The notes beneath the pieces are model-generated. The model saw nothing but the letters and a program-made list of their open reading frames with translations, ran no database searches and was not told the DNA's origin. Positions 587 through 33,154 of a DNA stretch of 33,154 bases are shown in pieces. Made by a program: the position numbers and the translations under genes. This stretch comes from a virus. The stretch covers positions 1-33,154 of IMG/VR virus record IMGVR_UViG_3300020200_000102; one strand, written 5' to 3'. The number at the start of each line of letters is the position of its first letter. The first letter of the stretch is position 1.

Positions 587-602
587 AATATTTATTCTAA
601 AA
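587..602 (+). promoter_or_regulatory. AT-rich box AATATTTATTCTAAAA just before a start codon
   Basis: The 16-mer AATATTTATTCTAAAA lies 4 nt upstream of the ATG at 607. The identical 16-mer occurs on the minus strand at 25465-25450, 3 nt upstream of another ATG. Shorter ATATTTAT boxes precede the starts at 8705, 21606 (-) and 29894. It could be a late-promoter -10 element or a translation-initiation context. In AT-rich DNA a single copy is weak evidence, so the identity and placement carry the case. Confidence 0.35.
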
Positions 603-606
603 CAAG

Positions 607-882
607 ATGAAACAGCTAATAGAACAGATACGGCTTAAGAAGACAGCAGGCCTTTTAAAAGAGAATCAAGACAGAGCTTACTCAGAAGCCCAATGGCACA
701 TGGACAAGTTCATGGACGACAACGCATCATTTGACGAGTACTATAGCTTGGTACAGGCCAAAGACGTTGAAGGTATGGTAGAATTCTTAGAGAATAATGT
801 GGCATCAGAAGAGATGATGTTAAGTTATTTTCCAGAAGGAGGCACCATAGAAGGATTTGCCCAGCACCTAATCAATAACTAA
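607..882 (+). CDS. small acidic protein with candidate capsid-targeting N-terminus (91 aa)
   Basis: No family is recognised. The N-terminus is basic and amphipathic (MKQLIEQIRLKK) and leads to AGLLKE at residues 14-19, an [L/I]-x-E site like those cleaved by T4-type prohead proteases. The remainder is helical and acidic, with aromatic residues and clusters such as FDEYY. The stop codon overlaps the next start (TAATGATG), so it is translationally coupled to the metallopeptidase-like gene. The shared N-terminal style and the operon suggest it belongs to the candidate packaged-protein set, which is inference. Confidence 0.65.
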   Translation: MKQLIEQIRLKKTAGLLKENQDRAYSEAQWHMDKFMDDNASFDEYYSLVQAKDVEGMVEFLENNVASEEMMLSYFPEGGTIEGFAQHLINN

Positions 883-1652
883 TGATGAAGTTAGTAGACT
901 TACTAAGAGAGGCGAATATAATAAAAGTTCCAGAGGAGGTATTGTCTAAACTCCCAGGAATTTATAAGGACTTAGACACTAATTTTGAGGAGTATTTAAA
1001 ACAAGCTCCTAAGAGTTATTTAAAACCATTAATTCCTAGTAAATTTGATAAAGTATTTAAGTTTAAAGACTTGGCAGGAAAAGACCTTGAGGTATCTGTT
1101 GGTTTATATAACGATGAAGATGACAGTGGAGGAGGAAGGATGGACACAGTCAACGATATTATGTTGATCAACCTAGCTTTTCTTGGTGATGAGGATGCTT
1201 TTTTGGAACTAGGAGAGCATGAATTAGTACATGCTATGGACCCTAAGGTTAGAGACCAAAAGTTATTTGGTGTACAGTATGCTAAGAAAGGAGCGGATCC
1301 AAATAAGAACTTAGAAAAGTATACCAAGTCACCTTGGGAGTTTGATGCATTTACGGCTCCTTTACTAAATAAACTAAAGAAGGGCTTGGATAGATCAGGA
1401 AATAAGGAATTTTTCAAGACATCGATGATGAAGCTATTGTCTGCAATTCCTAAAAAGTCGGTTGAAGATATTATGCAAGATGATGAGTTGTTGAGAAACG
1501 CTTGGTTTTTTAGTACCAAAGAATGGACACAAGAGAATTGGCCAGATGTGTCTAGGTCTTTTTATACAGATATACAGAACATGAAAATGTGGGCAAGTAA
1601 ACCTACTTTATACAAAAGGTTTTTGCAAAGATATGCAACAGTAGTAAAGTAA
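882..1652 (+). CDS. HExxH zinc metallopeptidase-like protein (256 aa)
   Basis: The product carries HELVH at residues 113-117, preceded by a hydrophobic helix and followed by AMD (D120). This is the zincin active-site signature, in which two His bind zinc and the Glu is the general base. The third zinc ligand cannot be fixed by eye; D120 or an acidic residue further downstream are candidates. The N-terminus MMKLVDLLREA matches the MK-L-x-x-L-L-x-E pattern seen in several genes here, with a potential cut after LRE (residues 8-10). Start codons at 882 and 885 are both possible; 885 would give the more typical MKLVDLL. It overlaps the upstream stop and lies 4 nt before the next gene, so it is part of an operon. 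The substrate is unknown. It is not obviously related to the metallopeptidase domain at 31658 beyond the HELVH motif. Confidence 0.7.
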   Translation: MMKLVDLLREANIIKVPEEVLSKLPGIYKDLDTNFEEYLKQAPKSYLKPLIPSKFDKVFKFKDLAGKDLEVSVGLYNDEDDSGGGRMDTVNDIMLINLAFLGDEDAFLELGEHELVHAMDPKVRDQKLFGVQYAKKGADPNKNLEKYTKSPWEFDAFTAPLLNKLKKGLDRSGNKEFFKTSMMKLLSAIPKKSVEDIMQDDELLRNAWFFSTKEWTQENWPDVSRSFYTDIQNMKMWASKPTLYKRFLQRYATVVK

Positions 1653-1656
1653 AAGT

Positions 1657-2547
1657 ATGAAACTAATTGATCTACTAAAAGAGATTGGTGACGCTACGGC
1701 TAGACCGTATGAATGGCAAAATATCCGTGATGATAAAGACTCAATAGAGTATGAATTCAAAACAGATTCAGACTTACGCTACATACTAGAAATCATGCCT
1801 CAAGAGGATGAGGAATTACGCGACTCAGCAATTGTAGAATTTGGAATCACTACAGGAGAACACAACTACTTTAAAGACTTTGAAATCATTACAAATGAAG
1901 GAGAATTGTACAAAGTGATGTCGACTGTTGTCGCCATTTTGAAAGACTTTATCAAAAAACACAAAGAGATAAAACACCTAGTCTTCATAACAGAAAATAT
2001 TAGAACCAATCTATACATACATTATATCAAAAAGCAATTACCTAATGCTAAAATACATTCCAAGTCAAAAAAAGACCAAAATACAGTTATTATAGATTTA
2101 AAAGAAATAGGAGACGCTACAGCTAAACCGTATGAATGGGAGACTTGGTCAGGCTATGAAGATGATAAAGAGTATGGGTTTGAAACAGACTCAGGCTTGA
2201 ACTATAAGTTAGAGATAGCTTTTCAAGAAACAGATAGTGAGAAAGACTCAGCTGCTCTAAGCTTTGGAATTGTAGACAAAGAATCAGATTATTCTGTAGA
2301 CTATGAGGCAATACCTAGTAAAGGTGAACTTTATAAGGTCATGGCCACAGTTGTAGATATACTAAAGGACTTTATAAAGAATTACCCAGAGGTTAGATAC
2401 TTGTACTTTTCGACCAATAAGCAACAAGGAGATCAAAGCTCAAGACTAAAACTATATATGAAGTACATACAGTCACAGATACCGAATGCCAAGATATATA
2501 CAAAGGATATAGATGGTGAAGAAGCTACATATATTACTTTGAAGTAA
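1657..2547 (+). CDS. tandemly duplicated protein with two LKE-IGDATA sites (296 aa)
   Basis: The protein consists of two homologous halves of about 141-146 aa. Half 1 starts at IGDATARPYEW (residue 10) and half 2 at IGDATAKPYEW (residue 151). Each then has an acidic beta-rich part, GELYKVM followed by a hydrophobic helix with LKDFIK, and finally a segment ending in PNAKI (129-133 and 276-280). LKE immediately precedes both IGDATA motifs, at residues 7-9 and 148-150. The N-terminus MKLIDLLKE fits the capsid-targeting pattern, and IIDLKE before half 2 looks like the remnant of a second copy's start, so the gene probably arose by fusion of tandem duplicates. No enzymatic motif is visible. If a prohead protease cuts after LKE, two similar mature domains would result (inference). 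Confidence 0.75.
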   Translation: MKLIDLLKEIGDATARPYEWQNIRDDKDSIEYEFKTDSDLRYILEIMPQEDEELRDSAIVEFGITTGEHNYFKDFEIITNEGELYKVMSTVVAILKDFIKKHKEIKHLVFITENIRTNLYIHYIKKQLPNAKIHSKSKKDQNTVIIDLKEIGDATAKPYEWETWSGYEDDKEYGFETDSGLNYKLEIAFQETDSEKDSAALSFGIVDKESDYSVDYEAIPSKGELYKVMATVVDILKDFIKNYPEVRYLYFSTNKQQGDQSSRLKLYMKYIQSQIPNAKIYTKDIDGEEATYITLK

Positions 2548-7168: not shown

Positions 7169-7345
7169 ATGAACGAGCTTAGATCTTTATTAACAGCAAT
7201 TCTAATCATATTAGCAATTCTTGGCTTTTCTTTTCTAGTGATACTATTAAGAGATAATTTTGATATCTTCCAAGTAAAACTAATTACCCTAATCCTTCTA
7301 CTATTCATTGGGCATGCCACTTATAATACAGCAAAAAAACTTTAG
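7169..7345 (+). CDS. two-helix membrane protein (58 aa)
   Basis: From ATG 7169 the product is 58 aa, with transmembrane segments at roughly residues 5-24 and 35-50 separated by RDNFDIFQVK, and a short basic tail (AKKL). An in-frame ATG at 7073 would add 32 residues from the GC-rich hairpin region; I reject it because that part is not protein-like and 7169 has an A-rich start context (tacagaaat). Small two-span proteins can be holins or accessory membrane proteins. There is no specific evidence for either. Confidence 0.5.
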   Translation: MNELRSLLTAILIILAILGFSFLVILLRDNFDIFQVKLITLILLLFIGHATYNTAKKL

Positions 7346-7348
7346 AGT

Positions 7349-7558
7349 ATGACAGTAAGAATTATTAAAATAGAATCTAATAAAGGTATTTGGTACGAAG
7401 TACAAATTCGTTTTCTATATATCTTTTGGCTAGACGCAGATATATTCAACCCAGGGTTTCAGAATATCTACCACAGTCTAGACGAAGCTATGGAAAATAT
7501 TAATAAGCTTAAAAAGACAAAGATAAAAAAATCAATCCAATATGTCATCAAGTTTTAA
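7349..7558 (+). CDS. hypothetical protein (69 aa)
   Basis: A 69-aa product with an N-terminal beta-hairpin-like sequence (VRIIKIESNKGIWYEVQIRF), aromatic residues in the middle and a lysine-rich tail. The segment SLDEAMENI resembles the helix often seen after short phage beta-sheets. It starts 3 nt after the preceding stop, so it is probably co-translated with the membrane protein. No family is recognised. Confidence 0.5.
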   Translation: MTVRIIKIESNKGIWYEVQIRFLYIFWLDADIFNPGFQNIYHSLDEAMENINKLKKTKIKKSIQYVIKF

Positions 7559-7626
7559 CTACTATAAATCCGTATACAGAAATTTACTAAAAAATCGTAA
7601 AAATCAAATTCTAAACTTTCAGAAAT

Positions 7627-7866
7627 ATGCGATTCTTTAAAAAAAGTGAATCTGTAAATTTCCAGGTAAATCCTTTAACTTATCAGCCTGGAGGTATTCA
7701 ATTAACCATTCTATTCTCAGATGGTACTTATGAGATTACTCATAATAAGATTAAATACCCAAAAAAATATACTTTAACCTTAGTAGACAAATACAGCCAT
7801 ACCAAAAACCCTGTAGTAAAGGTATATCATCAATCTGGTATTATATATGAAAAGAATAAGTCCTGA
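7627..7866 (+). CDS. hypothetical beta-rich protein (79 aa)
   Basis: A 79-aa lysine-rich protein that is probably mostly beta strand (GIQLTILFSDGTYEITHNKI, then YTLTLVDKYS). It overlaps the start of the following T5orf172 gene by 20 nt in another frame. No catalytic motif or family is recognisable. Confidence 0.5.
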   Translation: MRFFKKSESVNFQVNPLTYQPGGIQLTILFSDGTYEITHNKIKYPKKYTLTLVDKYSHTKNPVVKVYHQSGIIYEKNKS

Positions 7867-8338
7867 ACAAGCACACTTCTATGTTAAATTAACAGGAGAT
7901 GATCCTCGGAAGATGGAGAAGGCTGTGGCCTTTACATTGACTGATTCCAATGAGCCTGGTTGGCAAGACGTTACCTATTATGGTGAAGGTATTTTAGATC
8001 CTACCTCTAGTGTAAAGAAGCCAGAATGGGTTTATGTGTTAGTTAATAAAGGAGTTCCTGGTATTTGTAAGATTGGTATGACTACCACCTCTGTAAGTAA
8101 ACGTGTCAAAGATATTAATAGTGCTACAGGAGTTATTACTCCCTGGTTCCCTGTCTATAAGTATAAGTGCATCAATAGTAAAATCTTAGAAAAGGCCGTT
8201 CATGAAAAGCTAGGTAAATTAGGATATCGTGTTAACCCTAAACGTGAAGGCTTTGAAATTGACTCTAATACTGCCATTAACTTGATTAAAGAACTAGGAG
8301 ACGATCTTACTGTCACACCTAAAGACTTTAGTAAGTAA
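7847..8338 (+). CDS. T5orf172 / GIY-YIG-like domain protein (163 aa)
   Basis: Residues 62-150 fit the T5orf172 branch of the GIY-YIG superfamily: WVYVLVNKG at 63-71, CKIGMTTTSVSKRVKDIN with the conserved KIG and Arg, a central strand YKYKC, and EKAVHEKLGKLGYR, followed by REGFEI. These proteins are usually predicted nucleases in phages and mobile elements. The first 60 residues are a separate, unassigned N-terminal part. It overlaps the preceding gene. Target DNA is unknown, and a homing role is possible but not shown. Confidence 0.7.
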   Translation: MKRISPEQAHFYVKLTGDDPRKMEKAVAFTLTDSNEPGWQDVTYYGEGILDPTSSVKKPEWVYVLVNKGVPGICKIGMTTTSVSKRVKDINSATGVITPWFPVYKYKCINSKILEKAVHEKLGKLGYRVNPKREGFEIDSNTAINLIKELGDDLTVTPKDFSK

Positions 8339-8388
8339 ATTTGTATATATAATAAAATAGGACCCTTTTTTCAAAAAACGAAACATTT

Positions 8389-8670
8389 ATGTTATATATT
8401 TTGTTAATTATATTATCATTTATTATTTGCTTTCTAATTCTCAAGTTTATTAAGAAAATCATATACATAATAGGTATTATATTAGCTCTTATGATTATAG
8501 GATTTCTTATAATCCCTTTCAATCTCAATCTAGGCATGCAAATTGCTGCCTATATGTTCTCTATACTAGCCTGTCTAGCTGTTATATTCTTATTTAGCAG
8601 TATTCTATCTATGATCATTGTAACTCCAATAACGTTACTGTGGAATAGCATTAAAGGTTTATTTAAGTGA
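8389..8670 (+). CDS. polytopic small membrane protein (93 aa), holin-like possibility
   Basis: The product is almost wholly hydrophobic: segments at about residues 1-18, 22-44, 50-72 and 73-86, with a short basic tail SIKGLFK. Three or four membrane spans are likely. Size and topology are compatible with a phage holin, but no endolysin is next to it and many accessory phage membrane proteins look similar, so I keep it as unassigned. It is separated by 50 nt from the T5orf172 gene and precedes the 449-aa gene. Confidence 0.5.
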   Translation: MLYILLIILSFIICFLILKFIKKIIYIIGIILALMIIGFLIIPFNLNLGMQIAAYMFSILACLAVIFLFSSILSMIIVTPITLLWNSIKGLFK

Positions 8671-8704
8671 TATCGATATTTATTAGTGTATAAATTTACT
8701 ACAA

Positions 8705-10054
8705 ATGAAAGACTTTAATATTGCTAAATACCTTAAAGAAAACTATCAAGGACCATTTAGTATGTTTCAACCTTATACTGATCTTAATCCTTTAAAAGAA
8801 GAAATCAAAGGTAAATTCGCTGATGGCGGAGGAATAAAAAAATCTCCAACAGAAGCAACTATAAAAATGCACATCAATACTTACTCTGTATCAGATGACC
8901 CATACGAGATTGCTAAAGAATTAGGTGAGAAGTATGGCTGGAGTGAAAAAGAAATTGAAAAAGCAGAATCAATAATTCGGAAAAAATATATTAAAGAAGA
9001 TGGCGAGGAGATGGCCGGGGGTAGAATGATGGAAGATGGTGGTAAAGTTACAGATAAAGAATTAAGCTCTGAAAAAGACGTCACTATGAGATTTGATCTA
9101 TCTGATCCTGAGTCTAGTGAAGACGCTTATGAGTGGATTCTCGATAATATTTCTGATAATGAAGATTTTGTAATCTCAAAAAATGAAGATTATGAATTTA
9201 GACAAGCTCCTATTGAAGATATTGTTGACATAATTAATGATAGACTTAAAAATGCTACTATTGATATTGTAAACAATACTATAACTGATGAACTGACACA
9301 AGAGTATCAAGAGTGGGTGAAGCAAAATAATCTTCCTGAAATGAGTGCTGATGAACTTCTTTATGACGATTCTATTGAAAAGACTCCTGAGCAAGAAAAG
9401 TATCTTAAAGACTTTCTTGATAGGTGGGATAGTACAGACGATTATATTACATTAGCTATAACAAACACGCCACAAATAAAAGAAGCTTTTAGTGCTGAAC
9501 AAGAGAAGTTCGATCGTATGATGGGGCTTATTGATAGAACATTAGAAACACAACTTCATAAAATTAAAAATGCAGTAGATAAAGCTAGAAAGATGATGAT
9601 CTCTGACAAATCTATTTTTAATATGCTTTCTACTAGCTCACTAACTAAACAATCAGTTAAAGATCTTGTTGGTGCTGGGTTTGATCCAATGGACATTGTT
9701 GACTTCTTTGCTACCGACTTTTCTATTGCAGAAGATCGTGATAATGTAACTGCCGCAGACAATGCTGCTTATGGTGCAGATCAAGAAATAGGTGAACCTG
9801 TTGAAGAAGAGGTAACTGTATCTTCATCCGGTGTAGAAATGGAAGGTCTAGATGAAGAAATTGATATCTGGCAAATAGCTGGAGATCACCTTGAAGCCTT
9901 TAGATATCAACTAGCTAGCGCTCATGCTGTAGCAAGCCAATCAGGACAGAAAGAATGGGTAAGCGCCATTAATAAAATTGCTTTACGTTTAGATGCTCTT
10001 GAAGGTGCAATGGCAGAAGCCAGTGCTAAACTAGGAGTACTACCTACAAAATAA
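8705..10054 (+). CDS. large acidic protein with candidate capsid-targeting N-terminus (449 aa)
   Basis: The N-terminus MKDFNIAKYLKENYQGPF ends in LKE (residues 10-12), fitting the candidate prohead-cleavage pattern. After it come a Gly-rich patch (FADGGGIKK, residues 38-46), an acidic helical body with many D and E, a second Gly-rich patch AGGRMMEDGGK (103-113), and a C-terminal helical segment DIWQIAGDHLEAFRYQLASA. No enzyme motif is seen. The acidic helical composition would suit a head-internal, scaffold or core protein. It is the last plus-strand gene before the converging block and has its own terminator. Function is unknown. Confidence 0.7.
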   Translation: MKDFNIAKYLKENYQGPFSMFQPYTDLNPLKEEIKGKFADGGGIKKSPTEATIKMHINTYSVSDDPYEIAKELGEKYGWSEKEIEKAESIIRKKYIKEDGEEMAGGRMMEDGGKVTDKELSSEKDVTMRFDLSDPESSEDAYEWILDNISDNEDFVISKNEDYEFRQAPIEDIVDIINDRLKNATIDIVNNTITDELTQEYQEWVKQNNLPEMSADELLYDDSIEKTPEQEKYLKDFLDRWDSTDDYITLAITNTPQIKEAFSAEQEKFDRMMGLIDRTLETQLHKIKNAVDKARKMMISDKSIFNMLSTSSLTKQSVKDLVGAGFDPMDIVDFFATDFSIAEDRDNVTAADNAAYGADQEIGEPVEEEVTVSSSGVEMEGLDEEIDIWQIAGDHLEAFRYQLASAHAVASQSGQKEWVSAINKIALRLDALEGAMAEASAKLGVLPTK

Positions 10055-10079
10055 CTCTTGTTAATCCCATGCATAAATT

Positions 10080-10110
10080 AGCCTCGACTTAATTGTTCGG
10101 GGCTTTTTTA
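10080..10110 (+). terminator. rho-independent terminator
   Basis: AGCCTCGA (10080-10087) pairs with TCGGGGCT (10097-10104), including one wobble, around a 9-nt AT-rich loop, and is followed by TTTTTTA. It lies 26 nt after the 449-aa gene and just before the converging GIY-YIG gene. On the minus strand the tail after the stem (TAATTTAT) is weaker, so it mainly serves the plus strand. Confidence 0.85.
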
Positions 10111-10112
10111 TT

Positions 10113-10556
10113 TTACAGATCTTTTCTATAGAACCTTCCTTGTATATTATCGTTGTATGATTCTATTTGAAGTACTCTTAAATGCATCTGCCAATATACT
10201 TCATAGTAGTTTAACTGTTTCTTACTTTTACAGAATGTTAATATCTCTCTAGTAAAGCAGTCCTCGCCTAGATCTTTCAAGTCTTGTTTGATTAATTTGC
10301 TACTTCCCCAATAAGTATCCCAATTCGATTCTTTCTGTAACTTACGCTTCTTTGGGACGCGCCCAGGTTTGTCCCACACCGCGATCTCCTTCTTGGTCAA
10401 TATCTTGGTCACATTATTATACAAGACCTTTCTACCAATATAGAAACGGCCATCACATATATTAGTGATCTTGTATACGAACCCAAAAGTGTCTGGTGGG
10501 AAATCCTCTAGTGTTCGAAACTCTTTATTATTGTGCAACCACTTCTTATAACTCAT
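10113..10556 (-). CDS. GIY-YIG endonuclease-like protein (147 aa)
   Basis: The motif FGFVYKITNICDGRFYIGRK gives the two GIY-YIG core elements (VY then YIG) with the conserved Arg/Lys after it. TKKEIA, WDTYWGSSKLIKQDLKDLG and a Glu-containing FTREILTFC segment follow in the order usual for a small nuclease family common in T4-like phages. I choose the internal ATG at 10556 (MSYKKWLHNNKEF), which matches the family's usual beginning and has an A-rich leader. An upstream ATG at 10580 would add 8 residues and overlap the preceding gene. It ends the minus-strand tail operon. It could be a free-standing homing or mobile nuclease. Confidence 0.75.
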   Translation of the reverse strand: MSYKKWLHNNKEFRTLEDFPPDTFGFVYKITNICDGRFYIGRKVLYNNVTKILTKKEIAVWDKPGRVPKKRKLQKESNWDTYWGSSKLIKQDLKDLGEDCFTREILTFCKSKKQLNYYEVYWQMHLRVLQIESYNDNIQGRFYRKDL

Positions 10557-10567
10557 TTGGTTTTGTT

Positions 10568-11461
10568 TTAGCTGTCCCACCTTACTATAAATGTCATATC
10601 TGTATTAGGTGGCATTCTGTATGGTCTTGATAGTTTACCCACTACCAATAATTCATTTACATCGTTATATAAACCTACTGTTGTTGAATATGGATCAAAG
10701 TCTGATCCTGTTATTGCATTAATATATGATCCTGTTGTACCTGATTGTATTGCACTATGATTCAATGTATAGTTAAAATCGTTTTCATTAACTATGCACC
10801 TAACTTCATTTTGATACACAGTTAGTTCTGCTGTTAAATCAAGTCGTGTATTATAAGAGCTCTCGAACATTAATGTACCAAATTCTGGAGCCTGTGATGT
10901 GATAACTGCTATTCCTTGAGCATAGAATATATTTCCTACTCTTTGATTAATAACAGTTCCAGAGTTAACTTCTATTAAGTTACCATTACTGTCATCGATA
11001 ATTTGCCAATTTCTTACTTGCATACCATCTACAGTAGAACCAGACATATAAAAACTCTTTCTAGCTATTTGCTGGCCATAAATTAATCTTGGTATACTTA
11101 CAATCCAAAGACCAGCGTCTGAAGCTGTTGGAAAGTATCTAAAGTCATCATCAAATGTTCCTGATGCAGCGGTTGATTGAAGTACATTATCTGCATAAGA
11201 AGCAGTTGTTGGTACAGATCCTGATATATAATTAGAATAATATAGTTGTTTTACTGACTTATAATTTAAAAATGATGCTGTAGATGCGGCAGGTATTTCA
11301 TAGAAGTACGAACTTGTGTAATTAAGCCCTCTTTTATAAGTTATACCTACATTAGACCATAAAGGAGCTGGGCTCACTGTATTATAACTAGCAAAATATT
11401 TTACTTGTATAGGTACAGAGGTTACATCTGATGTCTTCAGTGTATTTGATGCTCTGCTCAT
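10568..11461 (-). CDS. tail fibre / baseplate-associated structural protein (297 aa)
   Basis: The protein is rich in S, T, N, Y and G, with beta-strand patterns and no catalytic motif, as expected for a tail fibre or fibre adaptor. The C-terminal 38 residues begin TTVGLYNDVNELLVVGKLSR (from residue 260) and correspond to the same module in the next gene (12502). CIVNENDFNYTLN just before it matches VRVKNQDYNYTTN there. This module recurs in structural proteins of marine and environmental T4-like phages. The gene is in the late structural operon, 9 nt from its neighbour. The exact position in the virion is unknown. Confidence 0.65.
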   Translation of the reverse strand: MSRASNTLKTSDVTSVPIQVKYFASYNTVSPAPLWSNVGITYKRGLNYTSSYFYEIPAASTASFLNYKSVKQLYYSNYISGSVPTTASYADNVLQSTAASGTFDDDFRYFPTASDAGLWIVSIPRLIYGQQIARKSFYMSGSTVDGMQVRNWQIIDDSNGNLIEVNSGTVINQRVGNIFYAQGIAVITSQAPEFGTLMFESSYNTRLDLTAELTVYQNEVRCIVNENDFNYTLNHSAIQSGTTGSYINAITGSDFDPYSTTVGLYNDVNELLVVGKLSRPYRMPPNTDMTFIVRWDS

Positions 11462-11470
11462 TTTTATTTA

Positions 11471-12502
11471 TTAGAAGTCTAATTTAACTCTTATTAAAGC
11501 TTCTTTAGTAAAGTCTTTTGTGAGAGCTTTAGACATTTTAGCTACTGCTAATAATTCATTATTATCATTATATAAACCAACAGTAGTTGGGAATGTTTGA
11601 GGACTATTAATAAAGTTTGAATAGATTAACGTACCTGAACCTGTAATAAATGATGGGTTAGTTGTATAATTATAGTCTTGATTTTTAACTCTTACAAATA
11701 CATAATCAGAAGAAATAGTCTCTTGAGAGTTCAATTGAAAGTTAGCACCTTTAATTATAGAGGTAATAATATTTGTTGTATTTGTAGAAGCATCACCGAC
11801 AGTACTACCGGATGCAATTACTAATCCAATACCTCCACCAGAGCCTGTTAACATTAGTGCTTTTGGGTTTAACAAAATTAGTCCAATATCAGGCAATAAT
11901 AAACCATAGCTTCCTGAAGGAGTAAATCCCCTTTGAGAAGCTCCTGTTATTAATGGTGTATTAGCTGCTGTACCATTAGATCCTGATACAATATTATAAA
12001 GACGTCCACCGTCTACAGAAGTAATTGTAGTTATGTCGTTAGAATCATCTGTTAATTTAACAAGCCCTTGTGACCCTGATAAATATAAATTAAATGTTCC
12101 TGGAAATAAACTTTCTTTATATCTATTTCTGTCTATTGGCAACGCAATTAAATCAATAGAAGCAGTATTACCAGATCCAAAGTTAACATTAGATTCTGCA
12201 TCTCCATAAATTAAGTTTCTATATTGACCAAAAGTAATTCTTGATGGAGTATTTTGTGCAATAAGAGAGTTAATAGGAGCAGATCCAGAACCTAATATAT
12301 TTCCATAAGCAATTGAAAATTGAATTGACGATGTAGTTGCAGAAACAGACGCATTATATACATCAATATAGTAACTACCTGTATTAGAAGCTGAGGCAGT
12401 GAAAAATGATGTTAGTGTAGTAACATTATTGCTCCATGCTGGTGCTGTAACCGAATCTGAAGATACTACAAAATCTGATGGATCTAATCTAGTAAATGAC
12501 AT
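11471..12502 (-). CDS. tail fibre / baseplate-associated structural protein, paralogue (343 aa)
   Basis: This Ser/Thr/Gly/Asn-rich beta protein has many ITGS and GSG turns. Its last 38 residues start TTVGLYNDNNELLAVAKMSK (from residue 306) and align end-to-end with those of the 297-aa protein, while the N-terminal parts differ. The two are thus paralogues by shared C-terminal domain, which may attach each to the same baseplate partner while the variable parts do different work. It overlaps neither neighbour. Likely exposed on the tail. Confidence 0.65.
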   Translation of the reverse strand: MSFTRLDPSDFVVSSDSVTAPAWSNNVTTLTSFFTASASNTGSYYIDVYNASVSATTSSIQFSIAYGNILGSGSAPINSLIAQNTPSRITFGQYRNLIYGDAESNVNFGSGNTASIDLIALPIDRNRYKESLFPGTFNLYLSGSQGLVKLTDDSNDITTITSVDGGRLYNIVSGSNGTAANTPLITGASQRGFTPSGSYGLLLPDIGLILLNPKALMLTGSGGGIGLVIASGSTVGDASTNTTNIITSIIKGANFQLNSQETISSDYVFVRVKNQDYNYTTNPSFITGSGTLIYSNFINSPQTFPTTVGLYNDNNELLAVAKMSKALTKDFTKEALIRVKLDF

Positions 12503-20749: not shown

Positions 20750-21163
20750 TTATAAGTTTTGAATAGTCATTGTAACAGAGTCATTCTCATTTGATCTCAA
20801 TAGGCGATAACTAAATTTTATATTAATAGAATTATAGCCTGGGTTTCCTATTATATCTAGGTTTGCAATTTGAACATTTGAAAAGTTAGCCTCTATTTGA
20901 GTTCTAATTGATTCTTTTATATCTTCAAAAGTAAGCTGATCAATAGGTTCAAATAACCTAGCTCTAAGGCCCGCTCCAAAAGTAGGGTTAAATGGTCTTT
21001 CTCTTGGATCCGTTAGTAAGAAATTAATCAAGTTATATTTAGTTTGGTCTTTGGTAGTATATATGGTAGAAAATACATTATCGGCAGCAAAAGGAATCTT
21101 AACACCGACTCCTGTCGATGGTCTGAGGTCTACTACTGATATTTTTTTTAACCCGTATGCCAT
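20750..21163 (-). CDS. baseplate wedge protein, gp25 / GPW family (137 aa)
   Basis: The core LINFLLTDPRERPFNPTFGA, then GLRARLFEPIDQLTFEDIKE and SIRTQIEANF, is the conserved gp25/GPW signature (R-E-R-P..P.FG.GL...LFEP). Length matches T4 gp25 (132 aa). gp25 binds gp6 in the wedge core and forms the first attachment of the contractile sheath. TAATG links it to the upstream gene and 2 nt separate it from gp6. High confidence from family signature and neighbourhood. Confidence 0.92.
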   Translation of the reverse strand: MAYGLKKISVVDLRPSTGVGVKIPFAADNVFSTIYTTKDQTKYNLINFLLTDPRERPFNPTFGAGLRARLFEPIDQLTFEDIKESIRTQIEANFSNVQIANLDIIGNPGYNSINIKFSYRLLRSNENDSVTMTIQNL

Positions 21164-21606
21164 TAAATAGCTCCTTTTTCTTTTAACTTACTCATTAAAC
21201 CAGTAAAATCTGGTATTTCATTAATTTGAACAGTATTTATGTTTGAACTTGATCTAGCTGTACTGAGCATACCTTCAACAGATCCTACAGATACCTGGTT
21301 AGGCTGAAAGGCCATAGCCGGGTGTACATCAGCCGAGGTCATAGAGAAGTCTTCATTCAACATATTATTAGCAGTATCATTCAAAAAAGCTGCCATAGGG
21401 TTATTGGAAGTAAACTTTATTTGAGGCCTACTAGACTGGGTATTCAATGTGCCAGGTATTTTAGCTTTAATTTCTTCTTGAAGAACTTTTTTAGCATCCT
21501 TTATCACAGGAGCTTGACCTTCTTTTAATAGTCTAGGAAGTTCCTCTTTCAGGACAGCTCGTAATTCCTCACGGATTAGCTTTCTTAATGCATCAATTTG
21601 TGCCAT
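21163..21606 (-). CDS. baseplate-cluster protein with long amphipathic N-terminus (147 aa)
   Basis: Residues 1-50 are charged amphipathic helix (ALRKLIREELRAVLKEELPR, then LLKEG), with [L/I]-x-E sites IRE, LKE and LKE. The rest is Asn/Ser/Met-rich, with KFTSNNPMAAFLNDTANNML and a C-terminal DFTGLMSKLKEKGAI. Similar N-termini occur in many environmental T4-like phage proteins. Unlike the plus-strand set, this gene sits in the baseplate operon, so its resemblance to capsid-targeting sequences may be coincidental. ATATTTAT lies 5 nt before the ATG. Function unknown. Confidence 0.6.
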   Translation of the reverse strand: MAQIDALRKLIREELRAVLKEELPRLLKEGQAPVIKDAKKVLQEEIKAKIPGTLNTQSSRPQIKFTSNNPMAAFLNDTANNMLNEDFSMTSADVHPAMAFQPNQVSVGSVEGMLSTARSSSNINTVQINEIPDFTGLMSKLKEKGAI

Positions 21607-25449: not shown

Positions 25450-25465
25450 TTTTAGAATAAATATT
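25450..25465 (-). promoter_or_regulatory. AT-rich box AATATTTATTCTAAAA before a start codon
   Basis: On the minus strand this 16-mer is identical to 587-602 (+) and ends 3 nt before the ATG at 25446. It overlaps the end of the sigma-factor gene. Its position suggests either an internal late promoter producing a nearly leaderless mRNA for the spike genes, or an initiation-region signal. Confidence 0.35.
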
Positions 25466-26228
25466 AAAAGTCTTGATTTTCAAGATAGCTATTTAGGATA
25501 GTCTTATAAATGATTTTTAGTTTTTTGATCACTTTGGTGATCGTATTAGACTGAGTATCAGTCATTTCTTTAACATAGATAAAGACTGCTTTTTTATTAA
25601 AAATGTCTATATTTTCTCTCTTTTTAAAGATTTCTAGAATGGCATCGGCCACTTTTATTTCCTCAGGTTTTTCAAATAATTCGAAAAGATTATCATCTAT
25701 ATATTTGATAAAAAGTTCGACCACACCTAACTTATCTAGTTCTGGTTCTGGTTCTTTTACTAAGATCGAGTTGACTAGTGCATTATCATCATGTTGTTCT
25801 CCAATATCTGCTTTGGACACTAACTTCTTGTAGTTTTTTTGATTATAAACGATCAAATACCTTTTAGCTATAGTCCCAAAATAAGAATATGCTTTACCTT
25901 TAGATTGATCATAAAGGTCTATTTTTTGTAAAAGAAAAGAGATCACTTCATATTTTAAGTCTTCTATATTATTAACTTCTGTATAATAAAACTTGAAGGT
26001 ATGGATAATATTTTCTACTAACTTATAGAAGCCATAGTGAATTCTTTCATTGTATATTTTATTTCTTTTGGCTTGATTTGATGTATTCCTATATTCTAGA
26101 ATAGCTTCTTCTGTTTCTAAGGTAAAATAATTATTCTTATTCTTGGGTTTACGTTTTCTAGGTTCACCTTTCTTAGTAAGGAGTATCTCTTCTTCTTTAT
26201 CTAAAATGGTGATCATTTTATTCCCCAA
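25464..26228 (-). CDS. late-transcription sigma factor, T4 gp55-like (254 aa)
   Basis: Residues ~70-150 read like a reduced sigma-70 region 2: ERIHYGFYKLVENIIHTFKF, then DLKYEVISFLLQKIDLYDQS, KGKAYSYFGTIAKRYLI. The DQ-x-K-G-x-A-Y-x-Y-F/G-T-I-A pattern is a sigma region 2.3/2.4-like signature also seen in T4 gp55 relatives. The C-terminal ~50 residues (KAVFIYVKEMTDTQSNTITK) could be a helix-turn-helix. In T4 gp55 (185 aa) directs host RNA polymerase to late promoters. This one is longer, with a basic N-terminal extension. Starts at 26228 (overlapping the upstream gene) or 26216 are both possible. Its target promoters are likely the structural genes that follow. Confidence 0.8.
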   Translation of the reverse strand: MGNKMITILDKEEEILLTKKGEPRKRKPKNKNNYFTLETEEAILEYRNTSNQAKRNKIYNERIHYGFYKLVENIIHTFKFYYTEVNNIEDLKYEVISFLLQKIDLYDQSKGKAYSYFGTIAKRYLIVYNQKNYKKLVSKADIGEQHDDNALVNSILVKEPEPELDKLGVVELFIKYIDDNLFELFEKPEEIKVADAILEIFKKRENIDIFNKKAVFIYVKEMTDTQSNTITKVIKKLKIIYKTILNSYLENQDF

Positions 26229-27143: not shown

Positions 27144-27320
27144 TTATTGTTCAGACTCACTATTTATTAGTATTTCTATTTCTTGAAGTTTAGCTCTTAT
27201 TTTTTCTACATGAGCTCTAAGTTCATCAATAGTTCTACTAGTTGATAAAAGTGCATCTTGACCATTAAGGAAGTTATTTAATTCAAATATCTTTCTTAGG
27301 ATTAATTGTTTGTATTTCAT
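27144..27320 (-). CDS. small coiled-coil protein (58 aa)
   Basis: A 58-codon frame from ATG 27320 to TAA 27144, too short to be caught by many gene finders. The sequence is heptad-rich and charged (MKYKQLILRKIFELNNFL, then RAHVEKIRAKLQEIEIL), predicting a helical coiled coil. It fills the gap between the thioredoxin-like gene (9 nt upstream) and the HD gene, consistent with a continuous operon. No known family. Confidence 0.55.
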   Translation of the reverse strand: MKYKQLILRKIFELNNFLNGQDALLSTSRTIDELRAHVEKIRAKLQEIEILINSESEQ

Positions 27321-27329
27321 ATTGTTAAT

Positions 27330-27650
27330 TTATAATTTGATTATATAATTTATTAATTGATCTATCGAGTACACACCAATTTTTATTATACCATCTACTA
27401 TTTGTTCTTTCTTTTCTATTTTGTCGTAGTCTTCTGTAAAGTAAATTATTTCTTTTATTTCATCGTTTATGTTCAGTAAAATAACCATAGGATATGTGCT
27501 AACACCGGCTAGACTTTCTACTTGATCACACAGATCATCGTTTTCATCACATGGATAATACTTAAAAGAATTATTAAAAAAGTCAAGCTTATTTTTTAAA
27601 GCTTTACACTTAGAACAATCTTTTAAAATCAAAATTATAACTTTTTTCAT
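27330..27650 (-). CDS. thioredoxin/glutaredoxin-like protein (106 aa)
   Basis: An N-terminal strand VIILILK followed by DCSKCKALKNKL gives a CxxC (C12-S-K-C15) at the start of helix 1. STYPMVILL (P54) supplies the cis-proline that precedes the third strand of the thioredoxin fold. Length is that of small phage redoxins, which in T4 (nrdC) serve ribonucleotide reductase. Extra Cys at ~34 and 41 may form a second disulfide. The partner here is unknown. It starts 5 nt after the upstream ORF ends. Confidence 0.75.
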   Translation of the reverse strand: MKKVIILILKDCSKCKALKNKLDFFNNSFKYYPCDENDDLCDQVESLAGVSTYPMVILLNINDEIKEIIYFTEDYDKIEKKEQIVDGIIKIGVYSIDQLINYIIKL

Positions 27651-27654
27651 ATAC

Positions 27655-27804
27655 TTATTCTTCTATATATTCTGTATCTATTTCTTTCATTAGATTTACC
27701 CAAAACAATTGTTCATCTTTTTCCATAGTGTCAAATGTAAATGATAAATATATATATAAAGCTTCTAATTGTTCTTCTGTTATTTTATTTTCTTTTATTT
27801 CCAT
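27655..27804 (-). CDS. small acidic protein (49 aa)
   Basis: A 49-codon acidic ORF from ATG 27804 to TAA 27655, beginning MEIKENKITEEQLEALYIYL and ending EYIEE. It is the first coding frame of the minus-strand operon, 5 nt before the redoxin. The aromatic/acidic helix is unlike any family I know. A weak promoter-like TCAAA...TATATAG lies at 27853-27831 just upstream. Confidence 0.5.
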   Translation of the reverse strand: MEIKENKITEEQLEALYIYLSFTFDTMEKDEQLFWVNLMKEIDTEYIEE

Positions 27805-29879: not shown

Positions 29880-29893
29880 ATATTTATAGTAGT

Positions 29894-30679
29894 ATGATTA
29901 AGCTACTAGATTTGTTAATTGAAGCCAAAGGCCAAAAGAAGGCTATTGTCATGGCAGGTGGAGCTGGTGTCGGTAAGTCTACCTTTGTTAAGAAGATCAG
30001 ACAAGACCTACAAAAGAATGGCTGGATAGAGCTGAACGCTGACAAATATGTAGAAGACCCTGAGTCTGACATGTTTAACAACTTAGCTAGAGCATCTATT
30101 AGAATAGACAAAGTAGAACTTCCTGAGACCATTAAGTCTGGAAAGAACTTCTTGTATGACACTACTGCAAGTAACGTACAAAGAGTCACTTCTATCAAAG
30201 ATAATGGCTATGATGTTATGATAGTCATGATCTATACTAACCCAATAGTTAGCTTCTCTCGTAACTTTAAACGTGAACGTAAAGTACCAACTGTAGGAGT
30301 CCTATCTAGTTGGAACAACATATACAAGAACATTGATACCTATAAAAAGACCTTTGGTAACAACTTCTATCTAGTTCAAACTACCATGACAGCTGAAGAA
30401 GAGTCAATGGTAAAAGAGTTTGAGAAGGCGTTCAAGCAAGGTAAGCTGAAAGAGTTCTTTGAGAGCTTACTATCCTCAGACAAGTTTAAGTCAACATTTA
30501 GAAAGGACCCAACTAAACAGAAGAGCCCTGAAGAGATTGCAAAGTCAAAAGCTATAGTAGACAAGCAGATCGACATACTAGCTGGTCAATTCGACAAGAT
30601 AGAGAAAGACGTTGAAAGAGTTAAGCCTGTGACTATGGATCAAGCAGTCGCTAAAGCAAAACAGTTTATTTCTAAGTGA
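29894..30679 (+). CDS. P-loop kinase, zeta-toxin/AAA_33-like, with candidate capsid-targeting N-terminus (261 aa)
   Basis: The Walker A motif GGAGVGKST sits at residues 22-30, right after the N-terminal MIKLLDLLIEAKGQKK. Downstream ELNADKYVEDPESD and FLYDTTASN, then IVMIYTNPIVSFSRN and RERKVP, follow the plan of zeta-toxin/AAA_33-type small-molecule kinases (base or sugar binding acidic motif, then an Arg-bearing lid). The first residues fit the MK-L-x-x-L-L-x-E pattern with a potential cut after LIE (8-10). The substrate is unknown: nucleotide, UDP-sugar or protein. ATATTTAT lies 6 nt before the ATG. It is the first gene of the coupled operon. Confidence 0.75.
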   Translation: MIKLLDLLIEAKGQKKAIVMAGGAGVGKSTFVKKIRQDLQKNGWIELNADKYVEDPESDMFNNLARASIRIDKVELPETIKSGKNFLYDTTASNVQRVTSIKDNGYDVMIVMIYTNPIVSFSRNFKRERKVPTVGVLSSWNNIYKNIDTYKKTFGNNFYLVQTTMTAEEESMVKEFEKAFKQGKLKEFFESLLSSDKFKSTFRKDPTKQKSPEEIAKSKAIVDKQIDILAGQFDKIEKDVERVKPVTMDQAVAKAKQFISK

Positions 30680-31074
30680 TTAAATTAATAAACATATTAA
30701 CTGAGAATGTACATCCGACTTTACAAAAAATTTCTGATGAAGTATCGTCTAAATTATATTGTAATAGGTTTGGCAACTGTGTTCATTTTGCAGAGTTGTT
30801 TGTTTCTGCTGTAGAAAAATATGCTCCTTCATTATTAAATACTTTTTTTGTTATAGAAGGATATGTAACTACAACAGCAGGTAAATTTGAACATACTTGG
30901 ATTGAAACAAAAGACGGAGATAAAATAGACCCAACTTTTGATCAATTCCAAGGAGCTATTAAAAAGATAACAAAAAGCAAAAAGTTTACAGCAGAAAAAT
31001 ATTTAGAAGATACAAAAAAAGGCACTTGGTTTTCTAAAAGAAGAGATGAATTGCCGCAAACTATATATAGATGA
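30676..31074 (+). CDS. transglutaminase-like cysteine peptidase-fold protein (132 aa)
   Basis: A GTG start overlaps the previous stop (GTGA). A Cys-His-Asp set in transglutaminase order is visible: C35 in NRFGNCVHFAELF, H73 in KFEHTWIETKDG and D85 in KIDPTFDQF. The fold can be hydrolase or transferase on peptides or amides. N-terminal MIKLINILTEN matches the capsid-targeting pattern, with LTE at residues 8-10. Small size (132 aa) suggests only the catalytic core. Assignment rests on the residue pattern and has no family-level proof. Confidence 0.6.
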   Translation: MIKLINILTENVHPTLQKISDEVSSKLYCNRFGNCVHFAELFVSAVEKYAPSLLNTFFVIEGYVTTTAGKFEHTWIETKDGDKIDPTFDQFQGAIKKITKSKKFTAEKYLEDTKKGTWFSKRRDELPQTIYR

Positions 31075-31661
31075 TCAACATAGACCATATAGGACGCCAG
31101 ATTGTAGAAGACCTTTTAAAAGAAGCGTCTTCAGATGTAGGCCCTTGTTTTTATCCTGGCAAATTTAAACCGCCACATAAAGGCCACTTTGAAGCAGCTA
31201 AGTATATTGCTTCTAAACCTTATATTAACAAGGTCTATATTATTATATCTAGAGTTACCAAGTTTGATATAACTGCAGAAGATTCACTTTATATATGGAA
31301 AGAATATTTGAAAGCGGAACCTAACCCAAAGATTCAGGTTTCTATTTCAAAAGAATCAACTCCTATAAAAGATATTTTTGTTTTTATGGATAATAATCCA
31401 GAAGTAGATCCTATTTATGTGGCCGGAGCAGCAGAAGAAGTAGAAGGTATAGGTTATTTTGATGCAATACAAAAAAGGTTTCCTGATCGTATAAGAAAAG
31501 AAATAATACCTGATCAATTTGAAAGAATATCTGCTACTCAAATGCGTAATGCAATAGAGACAGGAAACATAAAAAAGTTTGAGAAGTTTATCCCAGACTC
31601 AGCATATAATAAAGGAGCCACTAAAGATGTATTTAGTAGACTGTTGAAAATAATAAAATGA
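31071..31661 (+). CDS. HxGH nucleotidyltransferase, NMNAT/cytidylyltransferase-like (196 aa)
   Basis: GKFKPPHKGHFEAAKYI (HKGH at residues 36-39) is the nucleotide-binding HxGH motif, and ISATQMRNAI (from 153) equals the C-terminal ISSTxxR-type motif typical of NMN or pantetheine adenylyltransferases. YIIISRVTK and DPIYVAGAAEEVEG fill the Rossmann core. The N-terminus has a 20-residue amphipathic extension with IVE and LLKEAS (a potential LKE cut at residues 16-18). It would transfer AMP or CMP to a phosphorylated substrate such as NMN. Overlaps both neighbours by ATGA. Confidence 0.78.
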   Translation: MINIDHIGRQIVEDLLKEASSDVGPCFYPGKFKPPHKGHFEAAKYIASKPYINKVYIIISRVTKFDITAEDSLYIWKEYLKAEPNPKIQVSISKESTPIKDIFVFMDNNPEVDPIYVAGAAEEVEGIGYFDAIQKRFPDRIRKEIIPDQFERISATQMRNAIETGNIKKFEKFIPDSAYNKGATKDVFSRLLKIIK

Positions 31662-32917
31662 CAAATACAGAAAAGATATTAACCGTTGAAGATTTTGTTA
31701 AATTTGCTGTACAAAGACTCGGTATTAATAAAGTGCCTAAATTAAAGTTTACTAGTGACAGAGATTGGGCAGTTGAGCGTCATAGCTTTGGTCAATACAA
31801 TCCTAATGACAATATATTAGAAGTTTATATTAATAATAGAAACATGGCTGACATACTTAGAACACTTGGCCATGAATTAGTACATCACAGACAAAATGAA
31901 CTAGGTAAAATAAAAAACGATTCTGGTAATACTGGCTCTGAAATAGAGAATGAAGCAAACGTCCAAGCAGGAGTGTTAATGCGTGATTATGGTTATATCA
32001 ATGATACTATTTATGAAGCAGTTATTCCTACACTAAAACAAATATATGAGGTAGAAAAATCTGGACGTATTCAAATCTATTGTGATATGGATAGTGTGCT
32101 ATGTGACTTCGAAGGTAGATTTGAACACTACTACGGTGTACCACCTAGAGAGTACGTTAGCGAAAAAGGTCAAAAGATTATGGAAAAAGCCATCGACAAA
32201 ATAGGTGTAGTTTATTGGTCAAATATGCCTTGGATGCCAGACGGCAAAAAATTATGGGAGACTATAGGAAAATATAACCCTATTATCTTAACTAGTTCTG
32301 GTAATTTTGAATATGCAAAAAAAGGTAAGCTAGAGTGGATCAAAAAGAATCTGAACCCACAGCCACAAGATATTATGTTTGCTAATACTGGAAAGAAGTT
32401 TGAAGTGATCAAGAATAAAACACCTGAGGAAATCAAGAGTTCAATGTTAATAGATGATTATTATCCAAATCTTGCTCCATGGAGAGATATTGGTGGTATT
32501 GCTATCATGTATAAATCATATGATCAAGTAAGTGCAATACTAGATAAGTTTAGATTAACAGAAGACAAACTTTCTTATAATATTATTTCATCAGAACAAT
32601 TTAATAAAATATATGTTGAAGATCGTTTAAAAAAAGCTTACTTTGGAAATAAATATAAAAAAGATATTGTGACTGATATTAAACAGTATGGCAAAGGTGA
32701 TTATTGGTGTGTTAGTGAAAATTGTATAGATCACTATAGGGAAAATTCAAACTATATAGATGAAGATGAAACAATTTTACCAACAGGACTAAAAATAGCT
32801 GTAGGCAATCAAGATACTTTTGATAAATATGAAAAAGAAATTAAATTAAAAGCAGATGGATTTTATGATCCACAATTTGATACATATGGTTTAGTTTTGT
32901 TTAAAAAATATAAATAA
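31658..32917 (+). CDS. fusion: HExxH metallopeptidase-like, HAD nucleotidase-like and unknown C-terminal domain (419 aa)
   Basis: Domain 1 (~1-120): GHELVHHRQNE (HELVH at 72-76), followed by IENEANVQAG with an E that can be the third zinc ligand. Domain 2 (~137-300): HAD-type 5'(3')-deoxyribonucleotidase-like with IYCDMDSVLCDFEG (D143/D145), LTSSG (212-216), K near 253 and LIDDYYPN (D266/D267). Domain 3 (~305-419) is unrecognised. The linker at 116-137 holds IYE sites at 118-120 and 129-131. Unlike its neighbours its N-terminus (MTNTEKILTVEDFVK) lacks a clean [L/I]-x-E. Joined to the nucleotidyltransferase by ATGA. Catalytic residues of both enzymes look intact. Confidence 0.75.
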   Translation: MTNTEKILTVEDFVKFAVQRLGINKVPKLKFTSDRDWAVERHSFGQYNPNDNILEVYINNRNMADILRTLGHELVHHRQNELGKIKNDSGNTGSEIENEANVQAGVLMRDYGYINDTIYEAVIPTLKQIYEVEKSGRIQIYCDMDSVLCDFEGRFEHYYGVPPREYVSEKGQKIMEKAIDKIGVVYWSNMPWMPDGKKLWETIGKYNPIILTSSGNFEYAKKGKLEWIKKNLNPQPQDIMFANTGKKFEVIKNKTPEEIKSSMLIDDYYPNLAPWRDIGGIAIMYKSYDQVSAILDKFRLTEDKLSYNIISSEQFNKIYVEDRLKKAYFGNKYKKDIVTDIKQYGKGDYWCVSENCIDHYRENSNYIDEDETILPTGLKIAVGNQDTFDKYEKEIKLKADGFYDPQFDTYGLVLFKKYK

Positions 32918-32922
32918 GTTAT

Positions 32923-33051
32923 ATGATACCTAATGAGTCAACACTCAAGAAAGAGTTTTCGAAGCGTGATGTCCAAATAATGTGTAACCTTATAACCGGT
33001 AAATCTGGTGATAAAACACAGATTCAAGCAGGCTACGAAAAAATCAACTAA
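32923..33051 (+). CDS. small basic protein (42 aa)
   Basis: ATG 32923 begins a 42-codon frame ending TAA 33049-33051. The sequence KEFSKRDVQIMCNLITGKSG followed by DKTQIQAGYEK fits a short 'K-x-D-V-x-R-x-x-N-L-I-x-G ... T-x-x-Q-x-G-Y' motif that I have seen in small phage ORFs and as an N-terminal element of larger proteins. It has no assigned function. It starts 5 nt after the fusion gene. Confidence 0.5.
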   Translation: MIPNESTLKKEFSKRDVQIMCNLITGKSGDKTQIQAGYEKIN

Positions 33052-33066
33052 ATTAGCTAAATAATC

Positions 33067-33154
33067 ATGAAAATGACAGAATTAGAATTAAAGCAATTAA
33101 TTAGAGAAATAATTAAAGAAGGCTTAGAAGATACTTCTTGGACAAATGAAAAAG
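33067..33154 (+). CDS. partial gene with [L/I]-x-E-rich amphipathic N-terminus
   Basis: ATG 33067 opens a frame that runs off the window. The visible residues MKMTELELKQLIREIIKEGL then EDTSWTNEK form an amphipathic helix with two sites of the [L/I]-x-E type (IRE, IKE). This is very close in style to the other candidate capsid-targeting N-termini, and it continues the same strand and operon direction. The function of the body is not visible. Confidence 0.6.
   Translation, partial: MKMTELELKQLIREIIKEGLEDTSWTNEK

Follow-up and report, generated by a model that had tools for sequence, protein, structure and literature searches.

Why should adjacent phage genes for unrelated enzymes begin with nearly the same ten residues? 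The question is raised by positions 29,894–33,154 of the virus record IMGVR_UViG_3300020200_000102, a stretch of 33,154 bases analysed here in full (the window) and judged from its open ends and size to be a fragment. In phage T4, capsid targeting by a ten-residue sequence, packaging and injection are described as established (PMC9026906; PMC3012670). An initial annotation of the window proposed that its enzymes carry a comparable leader and are delivered with the DNA. We consider it probable, from the sequence comparisons below, that this N-terminus is a capsid-targeting leader of the T4 type, carried by a wide and exchangeable range of injected enzymes. Most computable predictions of that proposal held: the T4 register, the same plan on the capsid protein, a gp21-type (Pfam S77) protease in a close relative, unrelated bodies, leader swaps and a late-like box.

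That relative, G001, is a near-complete IMG/VR contig of 162,469 bases. Its gp6 and gp25 baseplate genes are 80% and 83% identical to those of the window, its kinase, nucleotidyltransferase, exonuclease and primase 70–81%, and its counterpart of gene 31658 (genes are named by their first coordinate) 58%, while window genes 607, 882 and 30676 have no G001 match at E 1e-5. By gp6, the nearest named phages are Flavobacterium phage immuto and Microcystis phage Mel-JY01 (44% each); a Bacteroidota host is our guess. Genes were called simply as longest frames, so some starts are wrong. The N-termini that had been read at 29894, 30676, 31071, 33067, 882, 1657, 607 and 8705 are all present as written, and another lies at 21163–21606 on the minus strand:

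607–882 (+): 91-residue protein, leader type C in the variant ...RLKKTAGLLKE, then N
882–1652 (+): zincin metallopeptidase (EHELVH), leader MMKLVDLLRE, then A
1657–2547 (+): tandem repeat protein (Pfam DUF6934, E 8.2e-18, two stretches), leader MKLIDLLKE, then IG
8705–10054 (+): 449-residue protein, leader type A MKDFNIAKYLKE, then N (FNIAKYLKE, then N)
21163–21606 (−): type-B N-terminus LRKLIREELRAVLKE, beside the gp25 and gp6 genes
29894–29923 (+): leader MIKLLDLLIE, then A, the N-terminus of the kinase
29894–30679 (+): P-loop kinase of zeta-toxin/CPT type (Pfam Zeta_toxin E 4.6e-12, CPT E 9.5e-5)
30676–31074 (+): 132-residue protein with a Cys/His/Asp pattern and a GTG start, leader MIKLINILTE, then N
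31071–31661 (+): nucleotidyltransferase, cytidyltransferase/NMNAT-like by PHROG matches, leader ...VEDLLKE, then AS, with Glu at residue 18
31658–32917 (+): zincin-type domain (HELVH, read from the sequence) fused to a 5'-3' deoxyribonucleotidase domain (PHROG 2643, E 9.4e-23, residues 139–305)
32923–33051 (+): truncated remnant of 42 codons, resembling by eye the start of a 192-residue G001 gene (27217–27795)
33067–33154 (+): partial gene running off the window end, with a type-B leader MKMTELELKQLIREIIKEG, N-terminus ELKQLIREIIKE

The positions of the key residues within the leader match those of T4. Mutational mapping of the T4 internal protein IPIII, as outlined in PMC9026906, assigns residues 4 and 7 to targeting and residues 8 and 10 to processing. 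In the kinase leader MIKLLDLLIE, residues 4, 7 and 8 are Leu and residue 10 is Glu, and the main form, MIKLxD[IL]LxE, places hydrophobic residues and Glu at these same mapped positions; in the window the Glu falls at residue 10 in 882, 29894 and 30676, at 9 in 1657 and at 18 in 31071. When 1,283 proteins of the window and six relatives were scored for a Glu at p preceded by hydrophobic residues at p-6, p-3 and p-2, the count peaked at p = 10, with 23 proteins against 3.5 expected (P 5.6e-12). The same register was found at position 10 in four proteins each of T4, P-SSM2 and Mel-JY01 (0.7 expected), and in none of the protease-negative phages phi14:2 and SPO1 (0.8 expected). From their sequences we take the four T4 proteins to be IPIII, IPI, gp24 and one other, while P-SSM2 has its own version of the leader, MKSFSQFLTE, and two similar to it.

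A looser pattern, h-x-x-h-h-x-E within residues 2–20, occurs in eight of the 43 window proteins against 0.8 expected (from seven of 391 interior 20-residue windows; binomial P 8.7e-7). This expression was composed after seeing examples, so that tests independent of it matter more. Elsewhere the observed and expected counts were 24 and 8.6 in immuto, 22 and 9.2 in T4, 16 and 6.6 in G001, 21 and 9.1 in G002, 18 and 7.4 in G007, and 12 and 6.5 in G004 (P 0.03); no significant excess was seen in HTVC008M, P-SSM2, Mel-JY01 or G003, or in either of the S77-negative genomes, phi14:2 and SPO1. Pairs of non-homologous proteins with a common N-terminus were more numerous than in any of 30 shuffles or any of 30 interior draws for G001, immuto, T4, HTVC008M, G002, G003, G007 and the window, and were not above these controls in Mel-JY01, phi14:2, P-SSM2, SPO1 and G004. 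This sharing is supporting evidence only, because secretion signals and similar starts make up part of the excess.

How many kinds of protein carry the leader became clear from viral contigs searched with a DNA pattern for M-I-K-L-x-D-[hydrophobic]-L-x-E, which occurs in at least 120 stretches. The matches listed, to which the following counts refer, fall in 80 loci; after removal of one duplicate and one product shorter than 60 residues, the 104 matches leave 102 proteins of at least 60 residues. Ninety-seven of the 102 are preceded by at most 30 open codons, and in no case do more than 60 open codons that hold a start codon lie upstream. A scrambled control (the same codons in another order) occurs in 41 stretches of the whole collection, 21 of which run for at least 60 residues, with 30 or fewer open codons upstream in only five of the 21. 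Compared from residue 15 onwards, the tagged bodies form at least 54 families without a BLASTP link (E 1e-3, single linkage), a count that still allows for distant homology between some of them. At most 47 of the proteins have a Pfam match at E 0.001; the names include zeta toxin (10), AAA_33 (8), DUF5872 (4), DUF5824 (2) and DUF6934 (2), with NUDIX, RNase_T, ART-PolyVal, cell-wall hydrolase, NT5C, CPT, MPTase-PolyVal and others found once. Among ten tagged proteins picked by eye, six had no Pfam match at E 0.01, and two Mel-JY01 proteins with a MIKL start that look ART-like by eye had no Pfam or PHROG match. The codons for Leu4, Asp6 and Leu8 of the leader vary synonymously; selection therefore acts on the peptide.

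On some bodies the leader is kept. It is present in all 12 kinase loci read among 16 relative loci (some near-identical), which hold MI[KRSG]L..[LI]L.E down to 30% identity, and in all eight nucleotidyltransferase loci read of 10; seven of the nine metallopeptidase relatives read begin [M/L]IKLxD[IL]L[KI]E. Across the clade it takes several forms, MIKLxDILxE as well as FNLxKYLxEN, LRQIIKEE, RMQKLAGIxxE and IIINERQLRQIIE (types A, B, C and E), and different forms stand on related bodies. The Cys/His/Asp protein 30676 has a 58% identical homologue in contig L214 that starts MKLQEQINRIQEMMGV, and re-aligned pairs combine MIKLKSLIRE with LREIIKEE (bodies 54% identical), MIKLIDILNE with YIENIIKEILSE (62%) and MIKLLDILNE with FNLRKYLAE (44%). 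Other pairs with unlike leaders, which include the nucleotidases of immuto, G007 and L301, share 28–42% identity over the body. Leader-type N-termini of immuto (host Flavobacterium sp. LMO8) include MIKLIDLLTE, then S (24569), MRLLELLRE, then A (112261), FLVE and FLTE, each then N (103806, 118632 and 117631), and IITE, then S (111675). Nine families had mixed leaders, but these include false or chained ones (a terminase; the two largest), and exchange is claimed only for the re-aligned pairs and the Cys protein. We place less trust in types A, B, C and E than in MIKLxDILxE, because type B includes a baseplate-region protein and the regular expressions also match native N-termini. As a separate observation, eight adjacent genes of L214 (IMG/VR 3300044678_002325, 7309–12262, minus strand) begin with MKIIINERQLRQIIESE or close variants, and some of their bodies look related.

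The window fragment has no S77 gene, while G001, immuto and other near relatives do. S77 is also present in T4, KVP40, P-SSM2, HTVC008M and Mel-JY01, as it is in all six further relatives of 103–183 kb and in six of 12 additional contigs with relatives, a group with many short members; it was not found in phi14:2 or SPO1. We screened the contigs of 76 of the 80 leader loci (excluding L244, L279, L264, which is the S77-positive G004 contig, and L299, which is the L265 contig). S77 occurred in 34 of the 76, compared with three of 41 scrambled-pattern contigs (P 1.3e-5), and the association persisted within size classes: 18 of 26 against one of seven at about 44 kb or more (P 0.014), and 16 of 50 against two of 34 among smaller contigs (P 0.003). 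The leader plan also starts 70 of the 71 major capsid open reading frames read (e.g. MANLVQSLLTES and MSNLVNSLLES), which were obtained by a filter from 80 capsid loci; the one remaining frame is truncated 5'. The same 70 have QLxxE at about residue 60, presumably the position of the T4 gp23 cut site. A homologue of the G001 protease was found in 71 of the 80 capsid loci.

Many leader genes are preceded by the octamer ATATTTAT, which is enriched ahead of genes (the form TATTTATA was used for immuto and G007):

588–595 (+): ATATTTAT box, before gene 607
8676–8683 (+): ATATTTAT box, before gene 8705
29880–29887 (+): ATATTTAT box, before the kinase gene and 6 nt from its start codon
588, 4862, 8676, 29880 (+) and 25464, 21619, 13191 (−): ATATTTAT(A) boxes in the window

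The window boxes precede three other genes besides leader genes 607, 8705, 21163 and 29894. When the window is pooled with six relatives, the box precedes 22 of 54 leader genes versus 137 of 1229 others (P 6.6e-8). In immuto it stands before seven of 23 structural genes, including those for terminase, portal, sheath, tube and tape measure, versus none of 34 genes for replication or metabolism; we picked the two sets by hand from the annotation. We regard the box as a late-gene-like element of the clade and a putative promoter. The T4-orientation late promoter TATAAATA was tried as the clade's late element and rejected, as it precedes none of the 54 leader genes and 23 of the 1229 others; TATTTATA is its reverse complement, here on the coding strand. 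Several other observations concern transcription. Window gene 25464–26228 (minus strand) has a weak match to sigma-70 region 2 (E 0.028, under the Pfam cut-off) and is perhaps the phage's late sigma factor. At about 60–76 kb of immuto (NC_055915) a second box, ATATTTAG, lies some 25 nt ahead of many small genes and is perhaps an early promoter, and TAGGTATCAATAATTAAA-like words are likewise enriched in immuto.

By analogy with T4, we infer that the tagged proteins are packaged, cleaved and injected. The enzymes would be made late, and their leaders would bind the scaffolding core inside the prohead, alongside the major capsid protein with its similar N-terminal plan. An S77 protease of the gp21 type would then cut after the Glu of [L/I]-x-E and release the enzyme within the head, and the freed enzyme would enter the next host with the DNA and may act on host defence or metabolism ahead of phage transcription. 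Judging from the body families and from T4 precedents outlined in PMC12373910 and PMC9391042, likely targets are nucleotide signals, nicotinamide adenine dinucleotide (NAD), host proteins, and restriction or other first-response defences.

A number of results weigh against the capsid-targeting reading. Within the operon of the initial annotation the leader is carried by the kinase, 30676, 31071 and the partial 33067 gene, but the complete gene 31658 has no clear leader. Two of the nine metallopeptidase relatives lack the site (in L223 the Glu is replaced by Lys, and L224 is a fusion that has no leader). In the register test positions 9, 12 and 13 are elevated as well (11, 14 and 11 proteins), S77-positive HTVC008M has no peak at position 10 (one against 0.5 expected), and the fourth P-SSM2 protein is probably UvsX, with a native N-terminus. 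To these may be added the non-significant results of P-SSM2, Mel-JY01 and G003 in the looser test, and the native N-termini, such as that of terminase, picked up by the leader expressions. The protease is absent from the 33-kb window, from six of the 12 contigs with relatives, from all 78.7 kb of the type-E array contig L214, and from 42 of the 76 leader contigs, which are mostly short but include two of more than 100 kb (G036 and G040). The residue after the Glu does not discriminate. In the window and six relatives, small residues follow it at 59 of 147 N-terminal versus 190 of 650 interior sites (P 0.007); the protease-negative controls are similar (10 of 18 versus 47 of 145, P 0.049), and the excess is absent from T4 (10 of 31 versus 35 of 96) and from P-SSM2, HTVC008M and Mel-JY01 (12 of 50 versus 122 of 359). 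Taken genome by genome, the box is significantly enriched in G001, G002 and the window, but not in G003, G004, immuto or G007, and it often lies 3–20 nt upstream of the start codon, so that mRNAs starting from it would have a very short untranslated leader or none.

Could the leader be a genuine core-binding or processing tag on proteins that serve head assembly or stay in the capsid, rather than being injected? The major capsid protein has the same plan, and the T4 protease also cuts core proteins (PMC9026906). We nonetheless think this unlikely, since the named bodies are accessory enzymes (kinases, NUDIX, ART-PolyVal, MPTase-PolyVal), the tagged set differs between phages (genes 607, 882 and 30676 being those unmatched in G001), and T4 Alt and many internal proteins are ejected, according to the same source.

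An amphipathic helix with a purpose outside the head (binding of membranes or host proteins, tail assembly, stability) would suit the type-B start of gene 21163 beside the baseplate genes, which may be the ordinary coiled helix of a tail protein, and structure models of the 30676 protein and of 882 have short, low-confidence helices at the leader. Such a helix does not account for the exact T4 register, the link to S77, the capsid protein or the exchange of leader types on one body, and it seems to us improbable. We give very little credence to chance, start-site composition or a DNA or RNA element dictating the first codons: the looser expression does match many unrelated proteins, but the scrambled control and the synonymous codons argue otherwise, and a MIKL-type expression has eight interior matches in 357,483 residues versus 15 at starts.

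The tagged window genes differ in how far their bodies can be named. The initial annotation called the 30676 protein transglutaminase-like; C35, H73 and D85 are indeed conserved in the single diverged homologue found, which carries another leader, but its fold matches are not significant. It has no Pfam or PHROG match, the best PDB matches of its fold model (from a two-sequence alignment; predicted local distance difference test, pLDDT, 67) had E 0.59 and worse, and a PDB sequence search gave three weak matches only (E 0.072–0.54). Several of the non-significant fold matches (LapG, Cif, IdeS, GtgE) are cysteine proteases, and the protein is perhaps papain/transglutaminase-like. The PDB sequence search found nothing at E 0.01 for the kinase or the nucleotidyltransferase; the latter matches PHROG 395 (E 3.6e-8, residues 137–193) and PHROG 3041 (E 1.6e-6, residues 29–183). 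In the model of metallopeptidase 882 (pLDDT 84) the leader lies outside the confident part, as the first ten residues average pLDDT 55 and the next eleven ten-residue blocks 76–97; its best fold matches, including the small metallopeptidases selecase and abylysin, were not significant (E 0.39 and worse). The deoxyribonucleotidase that follows the zincin in 31658–32917 stands alone in immuto (109856), G007 (78382) and L301, where it has a leader of its own. Within 1657–2547 a leader-like IDLKE, then IGDATA, recurs ahead of the second DUF6934-type copy and is a possible internal protease site.

The initial annotation knew of no description of such a set, but close precedents exist: T4 Alt and internal proteins, the P1 Dar proteins and the predicted polyvalent proteins. 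As in T4 IPI–IPIII and Alt, whose capsid targeting sequence is cut by gp21, the leader here is about ten residues long, is hydrophobic at 4, 7 and 8, has its Glu at 10 and stands on otherwise unrelated proteins; close relatives have the S77 protease, and an ADP-ribosyltransferase-type body is among those tagged. Unlike T4, with MKTYQEFIAE, the clade has its own leader (MIKLxDILxE) in several types and many more body families (at least 54). Leader-based finding of T-even internal proteins has itself been published (PMC12373910). Polyvalent proteins are predicted injected sets of unrelated enzyme domains, with 2–15 domains per polypeptide as presented in PMC5512222; ART-PolyVal and MPTase-PolyVal occur here on one each of the 102 proteins listed, but each protein has its own leader and few appear multi-domain (in the window, only 31658, which has no leader, and the repeat of 1657). 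Two other likenesses are by description, not sequence. In P1 an N-terminal signal sends the large injected protein DarB to the head, 30 residues sufficing for a reporter (PMC9024508), and in phiKZ and SPN3US a diverged gp21 homologue cleaves head proteins behind a Glu, among them ejection proteins that are packaged with the genome and ejected (as outlined in PMC9026906). Among the titles and abstract openings retrieved for ‘capsid targeting sequence’ none concerned this clade, and the literature surveyed at that level gave no description of these leaders and no virion proteome of this phage group. The kind of system is thus known; what appears new, within the literature searched, is a leader code that spans the clade, has several interchangeable forms and covers so broad a range of enzymes.

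Proteins injected by phages are normally learned from virion proteomics of cultured phages. If the leader has the same meaning here as in T4, sequence alone would tell which proteins many uncultured relatives inject. Among these would be kinases, an ADP-ribosyltransferase-type protein, bodies of NUDIX, nuclease and protease type and many without an assigned family, acting before the phage can transcribe counter-defences. Flavobacterium phage immuto offers a cultured phage for testing this, and the leaders are a natural set for protein delivery. With some reserve, we lean towards a general modular delivery code in a large environmental T4-like clade, in which four or five interchangeable leader types would label enzymes from dozens of unrelated families for binding to the prohead core, release by the protease and injection, giving each phage an exchangeable arsenal that may be read from its sequence.

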